Source: an uncultured bacterium (lineage in GTDB: Bacteria; Bacillota_I; Bacilli_A; RF39; UBA660). From it: a stretch of 5,587 nt of DNA. The stretch lies in assembly GCA_905215145.1 (NCBI GenBank), contig CAJMOW010000094.1:1-5587 (forward strand), written 5' to 3'. Below are positions 65-5,587 of this stretch, in pieces. The notes under the pieces are model-generated. The model was given only the letters and a program-made list of their open reading frames with translations. It was not told where the DNA came from and searched no databases. Each line of letters opens with the position of its first letter. The first letter of the stretch is position 1. The position numbers and the translations under genes are program-made.

Positions 65-1576
65 ATGGGAAAAGATATGCAAGAAATAGAAAAGACTTTA
101 TGGGCAGCAGCAGATAAGATGATTGGAGGACTATCTGTAACCAATTATAAATTTGTGGTATTAGGATTAATATTTTTAAAATATATATCAGATACATTTG
201 AAGAAAAATATAACGATTTAGTAAAAGAAGGATATGGATTAGAAGAAGATAGAGATGCTTATATGGAAGATAATATTTTCTTTGTTCCAGAAGAATCAAG
301 ATGGTCATATATAGTTAAACATTCAAAAGACTATAATATTGGAGAAATATTAGATAATGCTTTAGATTTAATTGAAAAAGAAAATCCTTCATTAAAGGGC
401 GTACTATTTAAAATATATAATAGTCCTGACTTTAGAAATGTTAATCTAGGAGAAATAATAGATTTATTTACTAATTTAAAATTAGGGACAAAAGATGCTT
501 CTGAAAAAGATATGTTAGGTAGAGTATATGAATATTTCTTAGGACAATTTGCTAGTAAAGATGGTCAAAAAGGTGGAGAATTCTATACTCCAGCATGTAT
601 TGTTAGAACAATGGTTGAAATGATAGAACCATATGAATGTAGAGTGTATGATCCAGCTTGTGGTTCAGGAGGAATGTTTGTTCAATCACTAAAATTTATT
701 GAAAGACACCAAGGCAATGTTAGAAATTTATCAATATTTGGTCAAGAAAAAAATCCAACAACTTGGAAATTAGCAAAAATGAACTTGGCAATTAGATCTA
801 TAGATGGTGATTTAGGTAAGTTTGCAGCAGATACATTCCATGAAGATTTGCACAAAGATTTAAAAGCAGATTTTATTCTTGCAAATCCTCCATTTAATAT
901 AAGTGATTGGGGACAAGAAAAATTAGTTGATGATTATAGATGGAAATATGGTATTCCTCCAAAAGGTAATGCAAACTATGCTTGGTTACAACATATGATA
1001 TCTAAATTATCTGCAAATGGCAAAGCAGCTATAGTATTAGCAAATGGTTCTTTATCTGCAGGTGGTCAAGAAGCAGAAATAAGAAAAAATTTGATTGAAG
1101 CTGATTTAGTTGATTGTATAATTGCAATGCCATCAAATCTATTCTATACAGTAACCATTCCTTGTTCTATTTGGATTATTAATAGAAATAAAAAACAAAA
1201 AGGACACACTTTATTTATTAATGCTTCAAATATGGGAACAATGGTTACAAGAAAACTTAGAGAATTATTAGAAGATGATACGCATAATGACATTAGCACA
1301 ATAGCTAATACATATCATAATTATCAAAATAATGAAAATTATGATGACAAACTTGGTTTTTGTAAAAAAACTTCATTAGAAGAAATTAAAAGAAATAGTT
1401 ATATTTTAACTCCTGGAAGATATGTTGGAATAGAAAAAAACGAAGAAGATGATATTTCTTTTGAAGAAAAGATGAAAAAAATCACTTCAGAACTATATAA
1501 CCAATTTGATGAATCTCATTCTTTAGAAGAAGAAATAAAAAAGAACTTAGAGGATATAGGTTATGAATGTAACTGA
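65..1576 (+). CDS. hsdM: Type I restriction-modification DNA methyltransferase subunit (HsdM)
   Basis: This is the modification subunit of a type I R-M system. With HsdS it transfers a methyl group from S-adenosylmethionine to the N6 of adenine in a two-part target. The 503 residues match the usual family length. The N-terminal helical HsdM domain (about 5-135) carries the typical run ending in LGLIFLKYISD (33-43). The catalytic domain starts at GGEFYTP (170-176). It has the SAM-binding motif I DPACGSGGMF (196-205) and the catalytic motif IV NPPF (274-277). TPGRYVG (449-455) is the usual C-terminal signature, followed by a charged helical tail. All key residues are present, so it should be active. 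The ATG at 65 is chosen because GAGG (54-57) lies seven bases upstream; the ATG at 77 is less well placed. The last 14 bases overlap the next gene. Confidence 0.97.
   Translation: MGKDMQEIEKTLWAAADKMIGGLSVTNYKFVVLGLIFLKYISDTFEEKYNDLVKEGYGLEEDRDAYMEDNIFFVPEESRWSYIVKHSKDYNIGEILDNALDLIEKENPSLKGVLFKIYNSPDFRNVNLGEIIDLFTNLKLGTKDASEKDMLGRVYEYFLGQFASKDGQKGGEFYTPACIVRTMVEMIEPYECRVYDPACGSGGMFVQSLKFIERHQGNVRNLSIFGQEKNPTTWKLAKMNLAIRSIDGDLGKFAADTFHEDLHKDLKADFILANPPFNISDWGQEKLVDDYRWKYGIPPKGNANYAWLQHMISKLSANGKAAIVLANGSLSAGGQEAEIRKNLIEADLVDCIIAMPSNLFYTVTIPCSIWIINRNKKQKGHTLFINASNMGTMVTRKLRELLEDDTHNDISTIANTYHNYQNNENYDDKLGFCKKTSLEEIKRNSYILTPGRYVGIEKNEEDDISFEEKMKKITSELYNQFDESHSLEEEIKKNLEDIGYECN
1549..1554 (+). 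promoter_or_regulatory. Ribosome binding site of the PIN gene, inside hsdM
   Basis: AGAGGA lies within the last codons of hsdM, nine bases before the ATG at 1563. It supports that ATG as the true start, although the start lies upstream of the hsdM stop codon. The arrangement suggests translational coupling of the PIN gene to hsdM. Confidence 0.65.
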
Positions 1577-2474
1577 AATATTTTTAGATACAAGTATTAT
1601 AAAAATTAAAAATGTTGAAGATTATTCTAATATTATTTTTGGAAAGAACTATTCTGATTTTGTGGATTTTATTAATTCAAATGGAATAAGTGATACTTGT
1701 AAAATTAATGTTGCAGAAATTGTTGTTGAAGAGTTTAAAAAACAAGCATGTGACAGTTTTGCAGAGGATGAAACAGATTTAAAAAAATATATAAATAAAT
1801 TCAGAGTTTACTATGGTCTCTCTCTTCCAGATACTAAGGATTTTAAAAAAAACTTAGATAATCAACTTAGAGATTATTTAGAAGCAGAAAATATTAGCAT
1901 AATACTTATTCCAAAAGAACGAAGTATATGGAATAAGATTATAAAAAAATCAATAAACAAAAAGAAACCATTTAATTGTGGAAACTCAGAATCAGACAAA
2001 GGATTTAAAGATGAATTGCAATGGGAGTCAATTATTGAGTATGCTAAAAAAAGTCCGAATGAACTATTTATTTTAATAACGAAGAATTCCAATGACTTCA
2101 CCGAAGATCTATGTGATGAATTTTATTCTGAAACAAATAAGAAATTAGAGATATATTACGAAATAGGTGAAGCACAGAGTAGATTATTAGAAATAAATCA
2201 AATTCAATCAAATTATTTATTTGTTGAATCGTATGTTAATTCGATGCTTGATAGTGGGGAATTATATGAAATAGTAAATAGAAAGATAAAAGAATATTAT
2301 GACATTAATATAGAAAGTATAAATAAATATTATGATTTAATTGATCAAGGTAATAACAATTACAAGTTTTTTATTGAAACACTTAATAATGGAACTATTG
2401 GTACATTTATCGTTGAATGTCAATTAAATTCAGAAAATCAAATTACAATTGGCGAAGTTATAATATGTTTGTAG
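1563..2474 (+). CDS. PIN-domain putative ribonuclease (DUF4935/PIN_12-like) embedded in the R-M operon
   Basis: PIN domains are metal-dependent nucleases, usually RNases, built around a cluster of acidic residues. The expected set is visible. FLDTS (7-11) opens the protein with the first Asp (D9). VVEEF (54-58) supplies E56 or E57. KGFKDELQWESI (146-157) supplies D150 and looks like the DUF4935/PIN_12 signature. LITKNSNDF (171-179), following a hydrophobic strand, supplies D178. The region from about 205 to 303 is an unassigned tail: helical at first, then ending in probable beta strands (about 278-302). At 303 residues the protein is much longer than a VapC toxin, and no antitoxin-like small gene lies beside it. 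It overlaps hsdM by 14 bases and ends nine bases before hsdS, so it is co-expressed with the methyltransferase. A role as a defence effector controlled by the R-M complex is inference. The family assignment is from motif recognition only. Confidence 0.8.
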   Translation: MNVTEIFLDTSIIKIKNVEDYSNIIFGKNYSDFVDFINSNGISDTCKINVAEIVVEEFKKQACDSFAEDETDLKKYINKFRVYYGLSLPDTKDFKKNLDNQLRDYLEAENISIILIPKERSIWNKIIKKSINKKKPFNCGNSESDKGFKDELQWESIIEYAKKSPNELFILITKNSNDFTEDLCDEFYSETNKKLEIYYEIGEAQSRLLEINQIQSNYLFVESYVNSMLDSGELYEIVNRKIKEYYDINIESINKYYDLIDQGNNNYKFFIETLNNGTIGTFIVECQLNSENQITIGEVIICL

Positions 2475-2478
2475 GTGA
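2473..2478 (+). promoter_or_regulatory. Ribosome binding site of hsdS
   Basis: AGGTGA overlaps the stop codon of the PIN gene (TAG, 2472-2474) and lies five bases before the hsdS ATG at 2484. It fixes the hsdS start. It also means that ribosomes finishing the PIN gene pass over the hsdS initiation site. Confidence 0.7.
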
Positions 2479-2483
2479 TATAA

Positions 2484-3638
2484 ATGTTAAAAAAATTAAA
2501 GGATGAATGCTATATAGTAATGGGGCAATCTCCAAGTTCGGTTAATTATAATCAAGATAAAACTGGTACACCTTTTATGCAAGGAAGAAAAACATTTGGC
2601 GATAAGTATCCAACCATTGATACTTGGACAACAAAATTAACAAAAATAGCTCCAAAAGGTAGTATTTTGATGAGTGTTAGAGCTCCAGTTGGTGATGTTA
2701 ATATTGCTCCTTGCGATTTATGTATTGGAAGAGGTTTAGCATCTATAAAGATGAAAAATGGTAATAATCAATATTTATACTATTTATTAAAAAATAATTC
2801 TGAATTGTTAAGAAATAGATCAACTGGAACTGTCTTTGAGGCAATTAATAAAGAAGATTTAGAAAATGTAGTATTAGATTTTCATGATGAAAAAGATCAA
2901 AGAAAAATAAGTACAATACTATCTAATATTGATAAAAAAATATTGCTAAATGAACAAATTAGTATCAATTTACATGAGCTATTAAAGACCTTATATTATA
3001 ATAGTTTTGTTCTTAATAAGAATGGCTCATGGAAGGTTGATAAATTAGGTAATTATCTTTATGTTGATAGAGGATTGTCATATAAAGGACAGTTTTTATC
3101 CGAACATGGTGTTCCGATGATTAACTTAGGAAATATAATGCCAAATGGTATTTTTAGAGTTGAAAAAAATAAATATTATTTGGGTGAATATAAAGAAAAG
3201 GTATTAACAAAAGTTGGAGATATCGTTTTAGCTAATACAGATATGACTCAAAATAGAGAAGTGATTGGATCTCCAGTCATTGTGCCTCCTATTTATGATG
3301 GTGATATAATTTTTTCACATCATATTTATTGTTTAAGAAATTTAAAATTACCTAAAATGTACATTTTTTACACTTTATTAACGGAACAATGGAATGCTGA
3401 ATCTGGAGGTAATGCAACTGGTACTACAGTATTGGCATTACCAAAAGAAACAATTGAAAATTATAAAATTGTGGTTCCTGATAAGGAATCATTGGTTTCT
3501 TTCGATAAATTGTCATCACCTATTCAAAAAAAGAGAGAACAATTAATGCTTGAAAATTTAAAATTAGAACAACTAAGAGATATGCTATTACCAAAACTAA
3601 TGATTGGTGAAATAGATTTAAATAATATAGAAATATAG
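2484..3638 (+). CDS. hsdS: Type I restriction-modification specificity subunit (HsdS)
   Basis: HsdS recognises the split DNA target and holds the HsdM and HsdR subunits. The 384 residues show the standard two-repeat layout. Target recognition domain 1 (about 1-132) carries MGQSP (13-17), SVRAPVGDVN (64-73) and CIGRG (80-84), all typical of one common TRD class. The first conserved spacer helix (about 136-175) contains DQRKISTILSNIDKKI (138-153). TRD2 (about 184-333) contains GDIVLANTDMT (245-255). The second helix (about 336-377) ends in LLPKLMIGEI (368-377), the usual HsdS ending. Both half-sites should therefore be read, and the protein looks intact. The target cannot be predicted from the sequence alone. 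The two TRDs differ clearly in sequence, so an asymmetric bipartite site is expected. No second hsdS copy or inverted repeats for shuffling are present in the window. Confidence 0.96.
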   Translation: MLKKLKDECYIVMGQSPSSVNYNQDKTGTPFMQGRKTFGDKYPTIDTWTTKLTKIAPKGSILMSVRAPVGDVNIAPCDLCIGRGLASIKMKNGNNQYLYYLLKNNSELLRNRSTGTVFEAINKEDLENVVLDFHDEKDQRKISTILSNIDKKILLNEQISINLHELLKTLYYNSFVLNKNGSWKVDKLGNYLYVDRGLSYKGQFLSEHGVPMINLGNIMPNGIFRVEKNKYYLGEYKEKVLTKVGDIVLANTDMTQNREVIGSPVIVPPIYDGDIIFSHHIYCLRNLKLPKMYIFYTLLTEQWNAESGGNATGTTVLALPKETIENYKIVVPDKESLVSFDKLSSPIQKKREQLMLENLKLEQLRDMLLPKLMIGEIDLNNIEI

Positions 3639-3661
3639 TATAAGTGTCAAATTTTGTGAAT

Positions 3662-3667
3662 GGAGGA
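3662..3667 (+). promoter_or_regulatory. Ribosome binding site of the Abi-like gene
   Basis: GGAGGA, one of the strongest Shine-Dalgarno sequences in the window, lies five bases before the ATG at 3673. It supports that start over the in-frame ATG at 3682. Confidence 0.7.
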
Positions 3668-3672
3668 ATATT

Positions 3673-4398
3673 ATGAGTAAAATGAATTCATTTATTGATT
3701 ATGCAAGTGATATATTAGGCGAAACTGATACTGGTATATCTACTATGGAAATAATAAGTATCTGTAATAGATTTGCTGCTGAATATAATGTTAATATTCC
3801 TCATACTAAAATTTATAAAGGATTTAATCAAACATTCTCAAATAAGAGAACTGCATTAAAAGAAAATCTTCAAAGATTTAATGAACAACAAGCATTTGAA
3901 ATTATAAAACATATTTGCGAATTAAGAAGATATAATGAATCAAAGGAATTCAAAGAAGTAAAAATAAAACTATATACTAATTTTCCACAATATGTGGATA
4001 AAGTAAATGATGTAGAATTAAGTGAAGATATTATAGAGAATAAGGAATTATTAGGAGATTTTCCTAAAGCAAAGAAAGTTTATGATGACGCTTGTTCATT
4101 GTTTACTATGGGATTATATGAAAGAAATTTAATTGATAATTTAAGATTATCTTTGGAATTAATTTGTAAGCAAGTTTTATCTAATGAAAAATCTTTAGAA
4201 AACAATATTAGTGCTATATGTGCATATCTAAAAACTAAAAACTGTTCTCAAGAATTTATTAATATGTTTCAAAAATTACTGGATTATTATTTAAAGTACA
4301 ACAATGATAATATTAAACATAATGAAAATATCAATAGCAATGAGATAGCTTTTGTTTTTGGATTAACTAATTTATTTATTAAGTTAATAGTTAAATGA
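3673..4398 (+). CDS. Uncharacterised helical protein, abortive-infection/HEPN-like C-terminal region
   Basis: I recognise the type of protein but no named gene. The 241 residues look almost wholly alpha-helical and soluble, with no signal peptide. The N-terminal part (about 1-85) contains a polar, conserved-looking segment with NKRTALKENL (57-66). This resembles N-terminal domains found in AbiJ-like and other phage-defence proteins. A variable linker (about 90-130) follows. The C-terminal part (about 132-241) runs YERNLIDNLRLSLELICKQVL (149-169), then a helix pair, then IKHNENINSNEIAF (214-227) and a hydrophobic last helix. That layout recalls the Abi_C/HEPN fold. The canonical HEPN R-x4-6-H pair is not seen: H216 is preceded by Tyr and Asn where Arg would be expected. 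RNase activity is therefore doubtful, and RNA binding, oligomerisation or sensing is as likely. It lies 34 bases after hsdS and overlaps or abuts the next gene. Confidence 0.55.
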   Translation: MSKMNSFIDYASDILGETDTGISTMEIISICNRFAAEYNVNIPHTKIYKGFNQTFSNKRTALKENLQRFNEQQAFEIIKHICELRRYNESKEFKEVKIKLYTNFPQYVDKVNDVELSEDIIENKELLGDFPKAKKVYDDACSLFTMGLYERNLIDNLRLSLELICKQVLSNEKSLENNISAICAYLKTKNCSQEFINMFQKLLDYYLKYNNDNIKHNENINSNEIAFVFGLTNLFIKLIVK

Positions 4399-4402
4399 GG
4401 TG
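4396..4402 (+). promoter_or_regulatory. Ribosome binding site deciding the start of the membrane protein
   Basis: TGAGGTG contains a GAGG core at 4397-4400 and lies four bases before the ATG at 4407. It overlaps the upstream gene's stop codon (TGA, 4396-4398). The earlier in-frame ATG at 4395 overlaps this element and has no Shine-Dalgarno sequence of its own, so 4407 is the preferred start. Confidence 0.65.
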
Positions 4403-4406
4403 TATT

Positions 4407-5048
4407 ATGAGTCAGGAAGCAATATTAAATATAGTATTATCTACAGTTGTTGCAATTACTGCAATATTTGCCTTATTTCAAACACATAGGCAAATAAAAT
4501 TGAGTAATAAACAATTTTTATTTAATAGAAGGCTAGATAAATATCTTTTAGCTAAAAGTTTAATTGAATTGTATAAAGATAACATAAATCTACTTGATTA
4601 CAAGGATAATAAAGATGATGAAGCAATAATTGTAGATTTTCAATTTACCAATTTGACTAATATTGAATATTTAAAAGATATAACTTGTGTAATTGGTGAT
4701 CCTAAAAATAATGAGTATAAAACTAATTTTCTAATAAAAATAGAAGAATTAAAAAAAATATCAACAGAGATAAAATTTATTTTTAAAAATAAGGAATCAC
4801 AATATTTAAGTAAATTTGTATTTAACTATCAAAATATTCTAATGGAATTATATAAATATCAAATACTTCTTGATAATATGATAAATGACAAAATACCTAG
4901 AAAACAGAAGCCAAGTTATAAAGAATTACAAAAAGAATATGGTGAATTAACTCATAGAAAAAGATTATATGGTGCAATAGATAGTTTAAATAGTAGTTAC
5001 AAAGAATTAATTAAAAAAATGCTATTAATAAAATTGAAAAAAGTATAA
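4407..5048 (+). CDS. Small single-pass membrane protein of unknown function, between hsdS and hsdR
   Basis: I do not recognise a named family. The 213-residue product begins with one clear hydrophobic segment (about 8-24, NIVLSTVVAITAIFALF). A basic, Gln/Asn-rich stretch follows (HRQIKLSNKQFLFNRRLDKY, 27-46), which by the positive-inside rule should face the cytoplasm. The rest (47-213) is highly charged, Lys-rich and probably largely helical, with likely coiled-coil parts near 105-125 and 145-185. No catalytic motif is visible. The segment lacks a signal-peptidase site and probably acts as an anchor. Similar short proteins, with a TM helix followed by a Q-x-x-LS-x-x-Q-type stretch and a helical cytosolic domain, occur near phage-defence genes, from memory only. 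The start overlaps the upstream gene's end, so the two are probably translated together and may act as a pair. An alternative start at 4395 would add four residues. Confidence 0.7.
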   Translation: MSQEAILNIVLSTVVAITAIFALFQTHRQIKLSNKQFLFNRRLDKYLLAKSLIELYKDNINLLDYKDNKDDEAIIVDFQFTNLTNIEYLKDITCVIGDPKNNEYKTNFLIKIEELKKISTEIKFIFKNKESQYLSKFVFNYQNILMELYKYQILLDNMINDKIPRKQKPSYKELQKEYGELTHRKRLYGAIDSLNSSYKELIKKMLLIKLKKV

Positions 5049-5054
5049 AGCTAT

Positions 5055-5061
5055 AAGGAAG
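5055..5061 (+). promoter_or_regulatory. Ribosome binding site of hsdR
   Basis: AAGGAAG lies eight bases before the ATG at 5070. A second ATG at 5066, four bases earlier and in another frame, sits closer to the same element but opens a three-codon ORF ending at 5077. The 5070 start is chosen because only its frame stays open and encodes HsdR. Confidence 0.7.
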
Positions 5062-5069
5062 TGAAATGT

Positions 5070-5587
5070 ATGTTTAATGAAGAAAGTTTGGAATTAATGA
5101 CTATAGATTTATTAAAAGAACAAGGATATACTTATGAAACTGGAGAATCAATTGGTAGAGATTATTCAGAAGTAATATTAGAATATAATTTGACTTGCGC
5201 TTTGTTTAAAATAAATAAAGGATTAAATGAAAATATAATTGCTGAAGCAGTTAGAATAATTAAAAATCTTGGTCAAAATAATTTAGTTAATAATAATAAA
5301 GTGTTTAGTAAATATCTTCATACTGGCATTAGTGTACCTGTGTATACTAAGGAAGGTGTAAGATATCATACTGTTAAATTAATTGACTTTGAAAATATAG
5401 ATAATAATGAATTCTTAGTCAGTAATCAATTTACTATTATTGAGCATAGTGAAAAAAGACCTGATGTCATTATCTTCATAAACGGACTTCCTTTAATAGT
5501 TTTTGAATTAAAAAGTATGACTCGTGAAGAAGTTGACCTAGAAAGTGCTTACAATCAATTAAAAGGTTATATGAATGTTCATATTCC
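5070..5587 (+). CDS. hsdR: Type I restriction endonuclease subunit HsdR, N-terminal part (cut by window end)
   Basis: Only the first 172 residues of a protein usually near 1000 residues are in the window. HsdR cuts DNA after ATP-driven translocation from the unmethylated target. The visible part is the N-terminal nuclease domain of the PD-(D/E)xK/RecB type. RPDVIIFINGLPLIVFELKS (130-149) supplies catalytic D132, E146 and K148. QLKGY (163-167) is the QxxxY motif found in type I R subunits. The start (ESLELMTIDLLKEQGYTY) matches the usual HsdR opening, in which a conserved Glu precedes an LGY/QGY segment. All expected active-site residues are present. The helicase motor domains and C-terminal assembly domain must lie beyond position 5587. 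The gap from the preceding gene is 21 bases, so it probably belongs to the same transcript, placed last and after the accessory genes. Confidence 0.95.
   Translation, partial: MFNEESLELMTIDLLKEQGYTYETGESIGRDYSEVILEYNLTCALFKINKGLNENIIAEAVRIIKNLGQNNLVNNNKVFSKYLHTGISVPVYTKEGVRYHTVKLIDFENIDNNEFLVSNQFTIIEHSEKRPDVIIFINGLPLIVFELKSMTREEVDLESAYNQLKGYMNVHI

Follow-up and report, generated by a model that had tools for sequence, protein, structure and literature searches.

A predicted PIN-fold nuclease gene embedded in type I restriction-modification operons

Phages carry blockers of type I restriction, and PrrC is the textbook case of a bacterium booby-trapping its own restriction-modification (R-M) enzyme against such blockers. 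The window analysed here, a stretch of 5,587 nucleotides from an uncultured bacterium, holds another nuclease-like gene inside a type I operon, between hsdM and hsdS. What does such a gene do there? A sequence-only reading had proposed that its product is a PIN-type nuclease that could guard the R-M complex. We find that interpretation partly supported; the RNase freed when phage disables R-M stays an analogy to PrrC.

The operon and its embedded PIN gene

The type I R-M set hsdM, hsdS and hsdR occurs together in the window, with hsdR partial because the window ends within it, and all six genes or ORFs lie on the same strand (Table 1). The 303-residue ORF, its 14-base overlap with hsdM and the overlap of its stop codon with the hsdS ribosome-binding site were all confirmed: hsdS starts 9 bases past the PIN stop, and the purine-rich stretch ahead of it includes the stop codon. 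A similar stop and ribosome-binding-site arrangement was seen in loci L001, L002 and L003. Both neighbours had been called methyltransferase genes; the PIN gene does lie between the two genes of M2S, but hsdS encodes the specificity subunit. No VapB-like small antitoxin gene was found beside the window PIN gene among the window's ORFs and Pfam matches, its neighbours being hsdM and hsdS.

Table 1. Features of the window, in positions counted from its first base.
Feature	Position	Strand	Support
hsdM, type I R-M methyltransferase subunit	65..1576	+	PF02384 (N6_Mtase) 4.8e-109, PF12161 (HsdM_N) 1.4e-22
hsdM/PIN overlap, 14 bases	1563..1576	+	hsdM end at 1576
PIN_12 nuclease gene (predicted), 303 aa, ATG start	1563..2474	+	
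D9 codon, active-site acid	1587..1589	+	73/73 relatives
E57 codon, active-site acid	1731..1733	+	73/73 relatives
D150 codon, active-site acid, end of SDKGFKD motif	2010..2012	+	73/73 relatives
D178 codon, likely fourth acid in near family	2094..2096	+	30/30 near relatives; 48/73 wider
C-terminal domain, residues 212-303, two helices and four strands, candidate contact domain	2196..2471	+	model
PIN stop codon merged with likely hsdS ribosome-binding site, TAGGTG	2472..2477	+	sequence
hsdS, specificity subunit	2484..3638	+	PF01420 (Methylase_S) 3.3e-22
ORF4, S/R interval, PADLOC candidate PDC-S32 match	3673..4398	+	6.4e-59
ORF5, S/R interval, hydrophobic N-terminus, no assigned family	4395..5048	+	L001 gene 56% identical
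hsdR start, partial at window end	5061..5587	+	PF04313 (HSDR_N) 4.9e-39

The protein matched Pfam family PIN_12 (PF16289; 7.2e-18, 66 bits against a curated cut-off of 32), with residues 6-179 aligned to profile positions 1-172 of 172, and this was its sole Pfam match at E <= 1; neither an ABC-type ATPase nor a PrrC anticodon-nuclease domain was found in that search. Given this score and the 37 protein clusters related to it at E <= 0.001, the PIN assignment is not a chance match. NCBIfam gave one chance-level match, far under its cut-off, and no PADLOC model matched at E <= 1 in a release that may or may not hold the PDC-S70 model. When solved structures were searched by sequence, neither the single protein nor an alignment retrieved a PIN relative. 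The AlphaFold2 model was confident (pLDDT 90.4) and has a predicted PIN fold, as had been proposed, and its best matches among solved structures were PIN proteins, those with named roles being mostly RNases (VapC, Rrp44, SMG6 and protein-only RNase P).

The acidic residues proposed for the active site were largely borne out. D9, E57 and D150 are conserved throughout the aligned PIN_12 proteins (Table 1), and the fourth acid of the set falls at column 178 or 175 (Asp in 48/73 and 37/73, respectively, residue 175 being Asn in the window protein). In the near family of 30 sequences, E57, D150 and D178 are invariant, as is the SDKGFKD motif, and D9 is kept in at least 90%. E56, which had been named beside E57, is Glu in just 21/73 and was rejected as a catalytic residue. 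The order of elements in the C-terminal domain matches that of a separately modelled relative from Alistipes; searched within the whole-protein model, the domain had no structural match clear of chance in the VIA lists. By its predicted fold and conserved active-site residues, the gene encodes a putative metal-dependent nuclease of the PIN fold.

VapC toxins, which have a role in growth arrest, share the PIN nuclease domain with the window protein. The phage-defence systems DS-3 and DS-5 share it as well (PMC13092281). The window PIN differs in lacking a VapB-like neighbour, in its extra C-terminal domain and in its link to hsd genes.

Relatives and their link to hsd loci

A PIN similarity scan of genome contigs found 11 loci, and 10 of them carried hsd genes. 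The hosts were uncultured Bacilli, Enterococcus mundtii, Oscillospiraceae, Ruminococcus, Alistipes, Epilithonimonas, Flavobacteriaceae, Treponema and Thauera; at the eleventh locus (L009, Thauera) no hsd gene was found on the 3.8-kb contig. The slot varied, among these loci and at L071, L107 and L139 from the genome survey described below. The order M-PIN-S was seen at L001, L002, L003 and L006, and at L007 M-PIN was followed by hsdS-like pieces on both strands (2836-4076), as in invertible hsdS regions. At L004, L005 and L139 the PIN gene lies between hsdS and hsdR, directly before hsdR in L004 and L005; in L005 a small gene separates it from hsdS. At L008, L010, L011 and L107 it follows hsdS, with other genes between it and hsdR, and at L071 it lies downstream of hsdR, outside the operon. 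The position between M and S had been taken as a hint of contact with the methyltransferase, a hint weakened by these same-clade relatives in the S/R slot and at L071.

The Enterococcus mundtii PIN (L004, 7995-9383) has a longer C-terminus, of which residues 356-454 weakly match the end of PDC-S15 (PADLOC, 6.7e-5), and in the order of this host only the centre genome itself, 1/188, passed the PF16289 cut-off. No PIN relative was found on plasmids or phages in either collection by tblastn with the window PIN, nor on plasmids with the L004 and L139 PINs; the L006 PIN found three Rhodococcus plasmid records at 28%.

A long HsdR gene was present at 13/15 in-clade hsd loci other than the window, and none was seen at L003 and L007, both on short contigs. 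Thus the PIN protein adds to restriction and does not replace it. Long HsdR at most loci would also suit a DNA-processing helper, whose PIN domain would widen restriction by cutting flaps, single-stranded DNA or DNA that HsdR translocation has opened, and DNA nucleases do exist among PIN-like folds. However, the fold matches with named roles are mostly RNases, a fold match itself showing no substrate, and we consider this explanation unlikely.

Is the link to hsd genes specific to these PIN proteins? PF16289 passed its cut-off in 5/392 genomes from the phylum of the window's genome (G001), 22/296 from that of the Alistipes genome, 8/299 from that of the Oscillospiraceae genome and 16/299 from that of the Thauera genome. 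The survey sample comprised 48 loci, with the centre genomes G001, G762, G761 and G765 excluded. The fetched stretch held hsd genes at 7/48 (L070, L071, L072, L073, L107, L139 and L052, the last being the same place as L003), a count that rests on hsd profiles built from sequences gathered in this same analysis, that includes L073 although other genes separate its PIN from hsdM, and in which short or contig-end loci (for example L103, L105, L120, L125, L126, L127 and L129) may hide hsd genes. In the PIN tree the window's clade has 31 rows (94/77) inside a 37-row clade (97/94). All five survey loci inside the window's clade (L070, L071, L107, L139 and L003) had hsd genes, compared to 2/42 placed outside it (L072 and L073), a figure that excludes L143, a match with stop codons that has no PIN ORF, no place in the tree and no hsd match. 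The hypergeometric value for this link was 1.4e-5, a guide only as the clade was picked after the tree had been seen.

DNA was read for 19 clade rows: 16 lie at hsd loci from several phyla, and three on viral contigs that lack hsd genes in the stretch read. The clade's remaining 12 rows are proteins with no known genomic context. One of the loci used, L074, came in by the HsdM search and not by the PIN search. The hsd fraction of the rows read was 16/18 in a first tree of 73 rows, made without L145, L108, L114, L140, L128, L129, L012 and L013, and 16/19 in a second of 76 rows, which added L114, L140, L128, L129 and L013 and removed the duplicates P0017 and P0024 (L145 and L108 duplicate L001 and L006, and L012 resembles L013). 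The HsdM profile score was at least 694 beside in-clade PINs at 14/14 loci where HsdM was read, against 498 and 528 at the two hsd loci with out-of-clade PINs. The HsdM tree has double copies of some places, and its group counts were left unused.

The link of the PIN clade to type I R-M, as read from gene neighbourhoods, is therefore well supported by these counts. Synteny shows that the window PIN is, as far as gene order can tell, an accessory dedicated to type I systems of one broad HsdM family. A second PIN_12 gene of genome G003 (L072, 7726-8826) falls outside the clade and lies directly before hsdM; its order PIN-M-S-R, in a different type I system, is a separate recruitment.

The three viral-contig rows (L013, L015 and L016) share one sub-clade with L008 and L071. 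As no hsd genes lie in the stretches read, the R-M complex cannot always be the keeper. The PIN_12 genes L015 (168-1256) and L016 (7668-8765) lie close upstream of a large terminase gene, and that of L013 lies near a transposase gene and a DNA methylase gene. Outside the main hsd set, 29/41 PIN_12 loci had no tight same-strand neighbour, so the family does not depend on a linked keeper.

Presence, absence and other cargo

A search for HsdM across 385 genomes from the order to which G001 belongs gave six places with at least 80% identity. PIN lies at the M/S junction in three of them (G001, which is the centre, G003 and G218, whose PIN is divergent) and is missing in G332 (HsdM 94% identical), G265 and G300. 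With G002 added from the PIN scan, PIN occurs in 4/7 operons at this level, and in 0/10 places with HsdM at 72-76% identity. PF16289 was found in 4/16 genomes of the HsdM set, so the remaining genomes are without PIN genome-wide, as far as they are assembled. In the PIN-less loci L020 and L023, hsdS has an in-frame start at the ATG inside the hsdM end at which the PIN gene of the window and L003 starts. Taken together, the junction and the presence and absence data show that the gene is gained and lost at a defined point in operons that are otherwise almost identical.

A one-off insertion was rejected, as further genomes carry the gene between hsdM and hsdS, patchily but repeatedly. The survey that the sequence-only reading had called for thus found the gene at hsdM-hsdS loci elsewhere; with a predicted PIN fold and, E56 apart, conserved acids, none of the findings it had named as refuting was made. 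Patchiness among close relatives is what a chance or neutral insertion without function would give, but the gene recurs across phyla with intact active-site residues, and synteny and conservation largely refute this explanation, the least probable of all. Control of expression, with the RNase trimming hsd mRNA to set the M:S:R balance, would suit a gene at a coupled translation junction; near-identical operons do without PIN, however, and PIN also occurs outside hsdM-hsdS, which leaves it very improbable.

The S/R interval of this operon family holds changing genes, in the window the PDC-S32 match and ORF5. ORF5 relatives lie between hsdS and hsdR in the PIN-bearing loci L001 and L074 (as two open frames in L074), and none was matched in the five PIN-lacking loci L075-L079. 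L002 has PIN, yet BLAST finds no similarity between ORF5 and a 217-aa gene in its S/R interval, and ORF5 was therefore rejected as an obligate partner or antitoxin. The S/R intervals of L075-L078 hold different genes, and L079 has PDC-S32-like frames between hsdS and hsdR. In L107, the stretch from PIN to hsdR (3716-7033) carries GmrSD_N and AAA_15 genes plus a further gene that Pfam does not match, and in L071 an AbiGi gene directly follows hsdR.

The operon is thus a cargo platform, which feeds the main rival explanation: that the PIN protein is autonomous defence cargo, a self-controlled abortive-infection nuclease that senses phage itself and gains shared expression, retention and transfer by riding in the R-M operon. 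The patchy occurrence at a defined junction, the two slots (M/S and S/R), the other cargo just described (PDC-S32, GmrSD_N with AAA_15, and AbiGi), the viral-contig relatives without hsd genes and the mostly neighbourless out-of-clade PIN_12 genes are all consistent with this. DS-3 is also a precedent, having been shown as a single-gene PIN defence without antitoxin (PMC13092281). However, free cargo would not be expected to stay so near to the hsd loci of a single HsdM family, nor does this reading account for the tight coupling on both sides of the PIN gene. We regard autonomous cargo as a serious possibility.

A possible guard of the R-M complex

The best supported reading, with autonomous cargo close behind, is a guard: an RNase effector, latent and associated with the R-M complex, PrrC-like but built on another fold, which we favour tentatively and by analogy. 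Coupling of its start and stop to hsdM and hsdS would tie synthesis of the PIN protein to that of HsdM and HsdS. As long as the R-M complex is intact, the PIN protein would stay bound to it and inactive, probably touching it through the C-terminal four-stranded domain. Once the complex is disabled or remodelled, by a phage product or by DNA damage, the PIN domain would be freed or switched on; it would then cut RNA (tRNA, rRNA or mRNA), and the infected cell would stop growing before the phage can finish. This would be the logic of PrrC on another nuclease fold, without PrrC's ATPase. We infer RNase activity, latency, control by the complex and the anti-restriction trigger alike.

Several lines of evidence count for the guard: the PIN fold with its conserved acids; hsd genes at 10/11 loci found by PIN similarity alone; 16/19 clade rows at hsd loci against 2/42 loci outside; fidelity to one HsdM family, with scores of at least 694 (14/14) against 498 and 528, although this may reflect shared descent instead of contact; tight junctions with hsdM and hsdS and no VapB-like gene adjoining in the window; a long HsdR at 13/15 in-clade hsd loci besides the window; and the precedent of PrrC, silenced by EcoprrI and activated by T4 Stp. 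Against it count the two slots together with L071 downstream of hsdR, which speak against a single fixed assembly; the patchy presence (4/7 at 80% HsdM identity or more, 0/10 at 72-76%); the three in-clade viral-contig relatives; the 29/41 PIN_12 genes elsewhere that have no tight neighbour; and the changing S/R cargo, which also fits a mere cargo role.

PrrC is likewise a nuclease encoded within a type I R-M locus, and the S/R slot of some PIN relatives resembles that of prrC, which lies between S and R in the EcoprrI locus. The window protein differs in its PIN fold, in having neither an ABC ATPase nor a PrrC domain, and in its M/S slot. PrrC is silenced by the EcoprrI type IC enzyme (PMC2610378, PMC12707154, PMC3874165) and activated by phage anti-restriction through T4 Stp (PMC2610378, PMC12707154). 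Toxin-like HEPN, Sir2, ParB and REase genes in type I and III loci are described in PMC3506569, which proposes immune components as their antitoxins. The guilt-by-embedding candidates (PDC series, Payne preprint 2024) are single genes embedded in other defence systems, and PDC-S70 among them also carries a PIN domain (PMC12988326); PDC-S70 was absent among the PADLOC matches of 20 other PIN_12 proteins. DarTG2 and TgvAB are also defence genes within type I hsd operons, DarTG2 between hsdS and hsdR, but they differ in enzyme type, the first a toxin-antitoxin pair and the second a type IV restriction pair (PMC12255303, PMC11411939). A PIN gene within hsdM-hsdS was not found in the accessible portions of PMC6211672, PMC7641849 and PMC10354927. 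The literature search, whose scope excluded the Payne 2024 preprint and one PIN superfamily classification, found no paper on PF16289 and no description of the PIN_12 clade at hsd loci. Publications already cover toxins embedded in type I loci and a guilt-by-embedding PIN candidate, and the clade at hsd loci is apparently new, in that we found no report of it.

A broader claim, possible but more doubtful, is that the phylum-spanning PIN clade is a dedicated R-M guard, a second counterpart to PrrC that evolved independently of it. Complexes of one HsdM family would hold these nucleases through the C-terminal four-stranded domain, and phages that block or dismantle type I restriction would let them loose on RNA. 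Natural plus/minus pairs of operons, with HsdM 94% identical and with or without PIN, make the guard idea directly testable. A PIN gene inside a type I operon, with relatives in similar operons of other bacterial phyla, may point to a second layer of phage defence built into the operon, and if the PIN clade acts as PrrC does, with another nuclease, then the guarding of R-M arose more than once.
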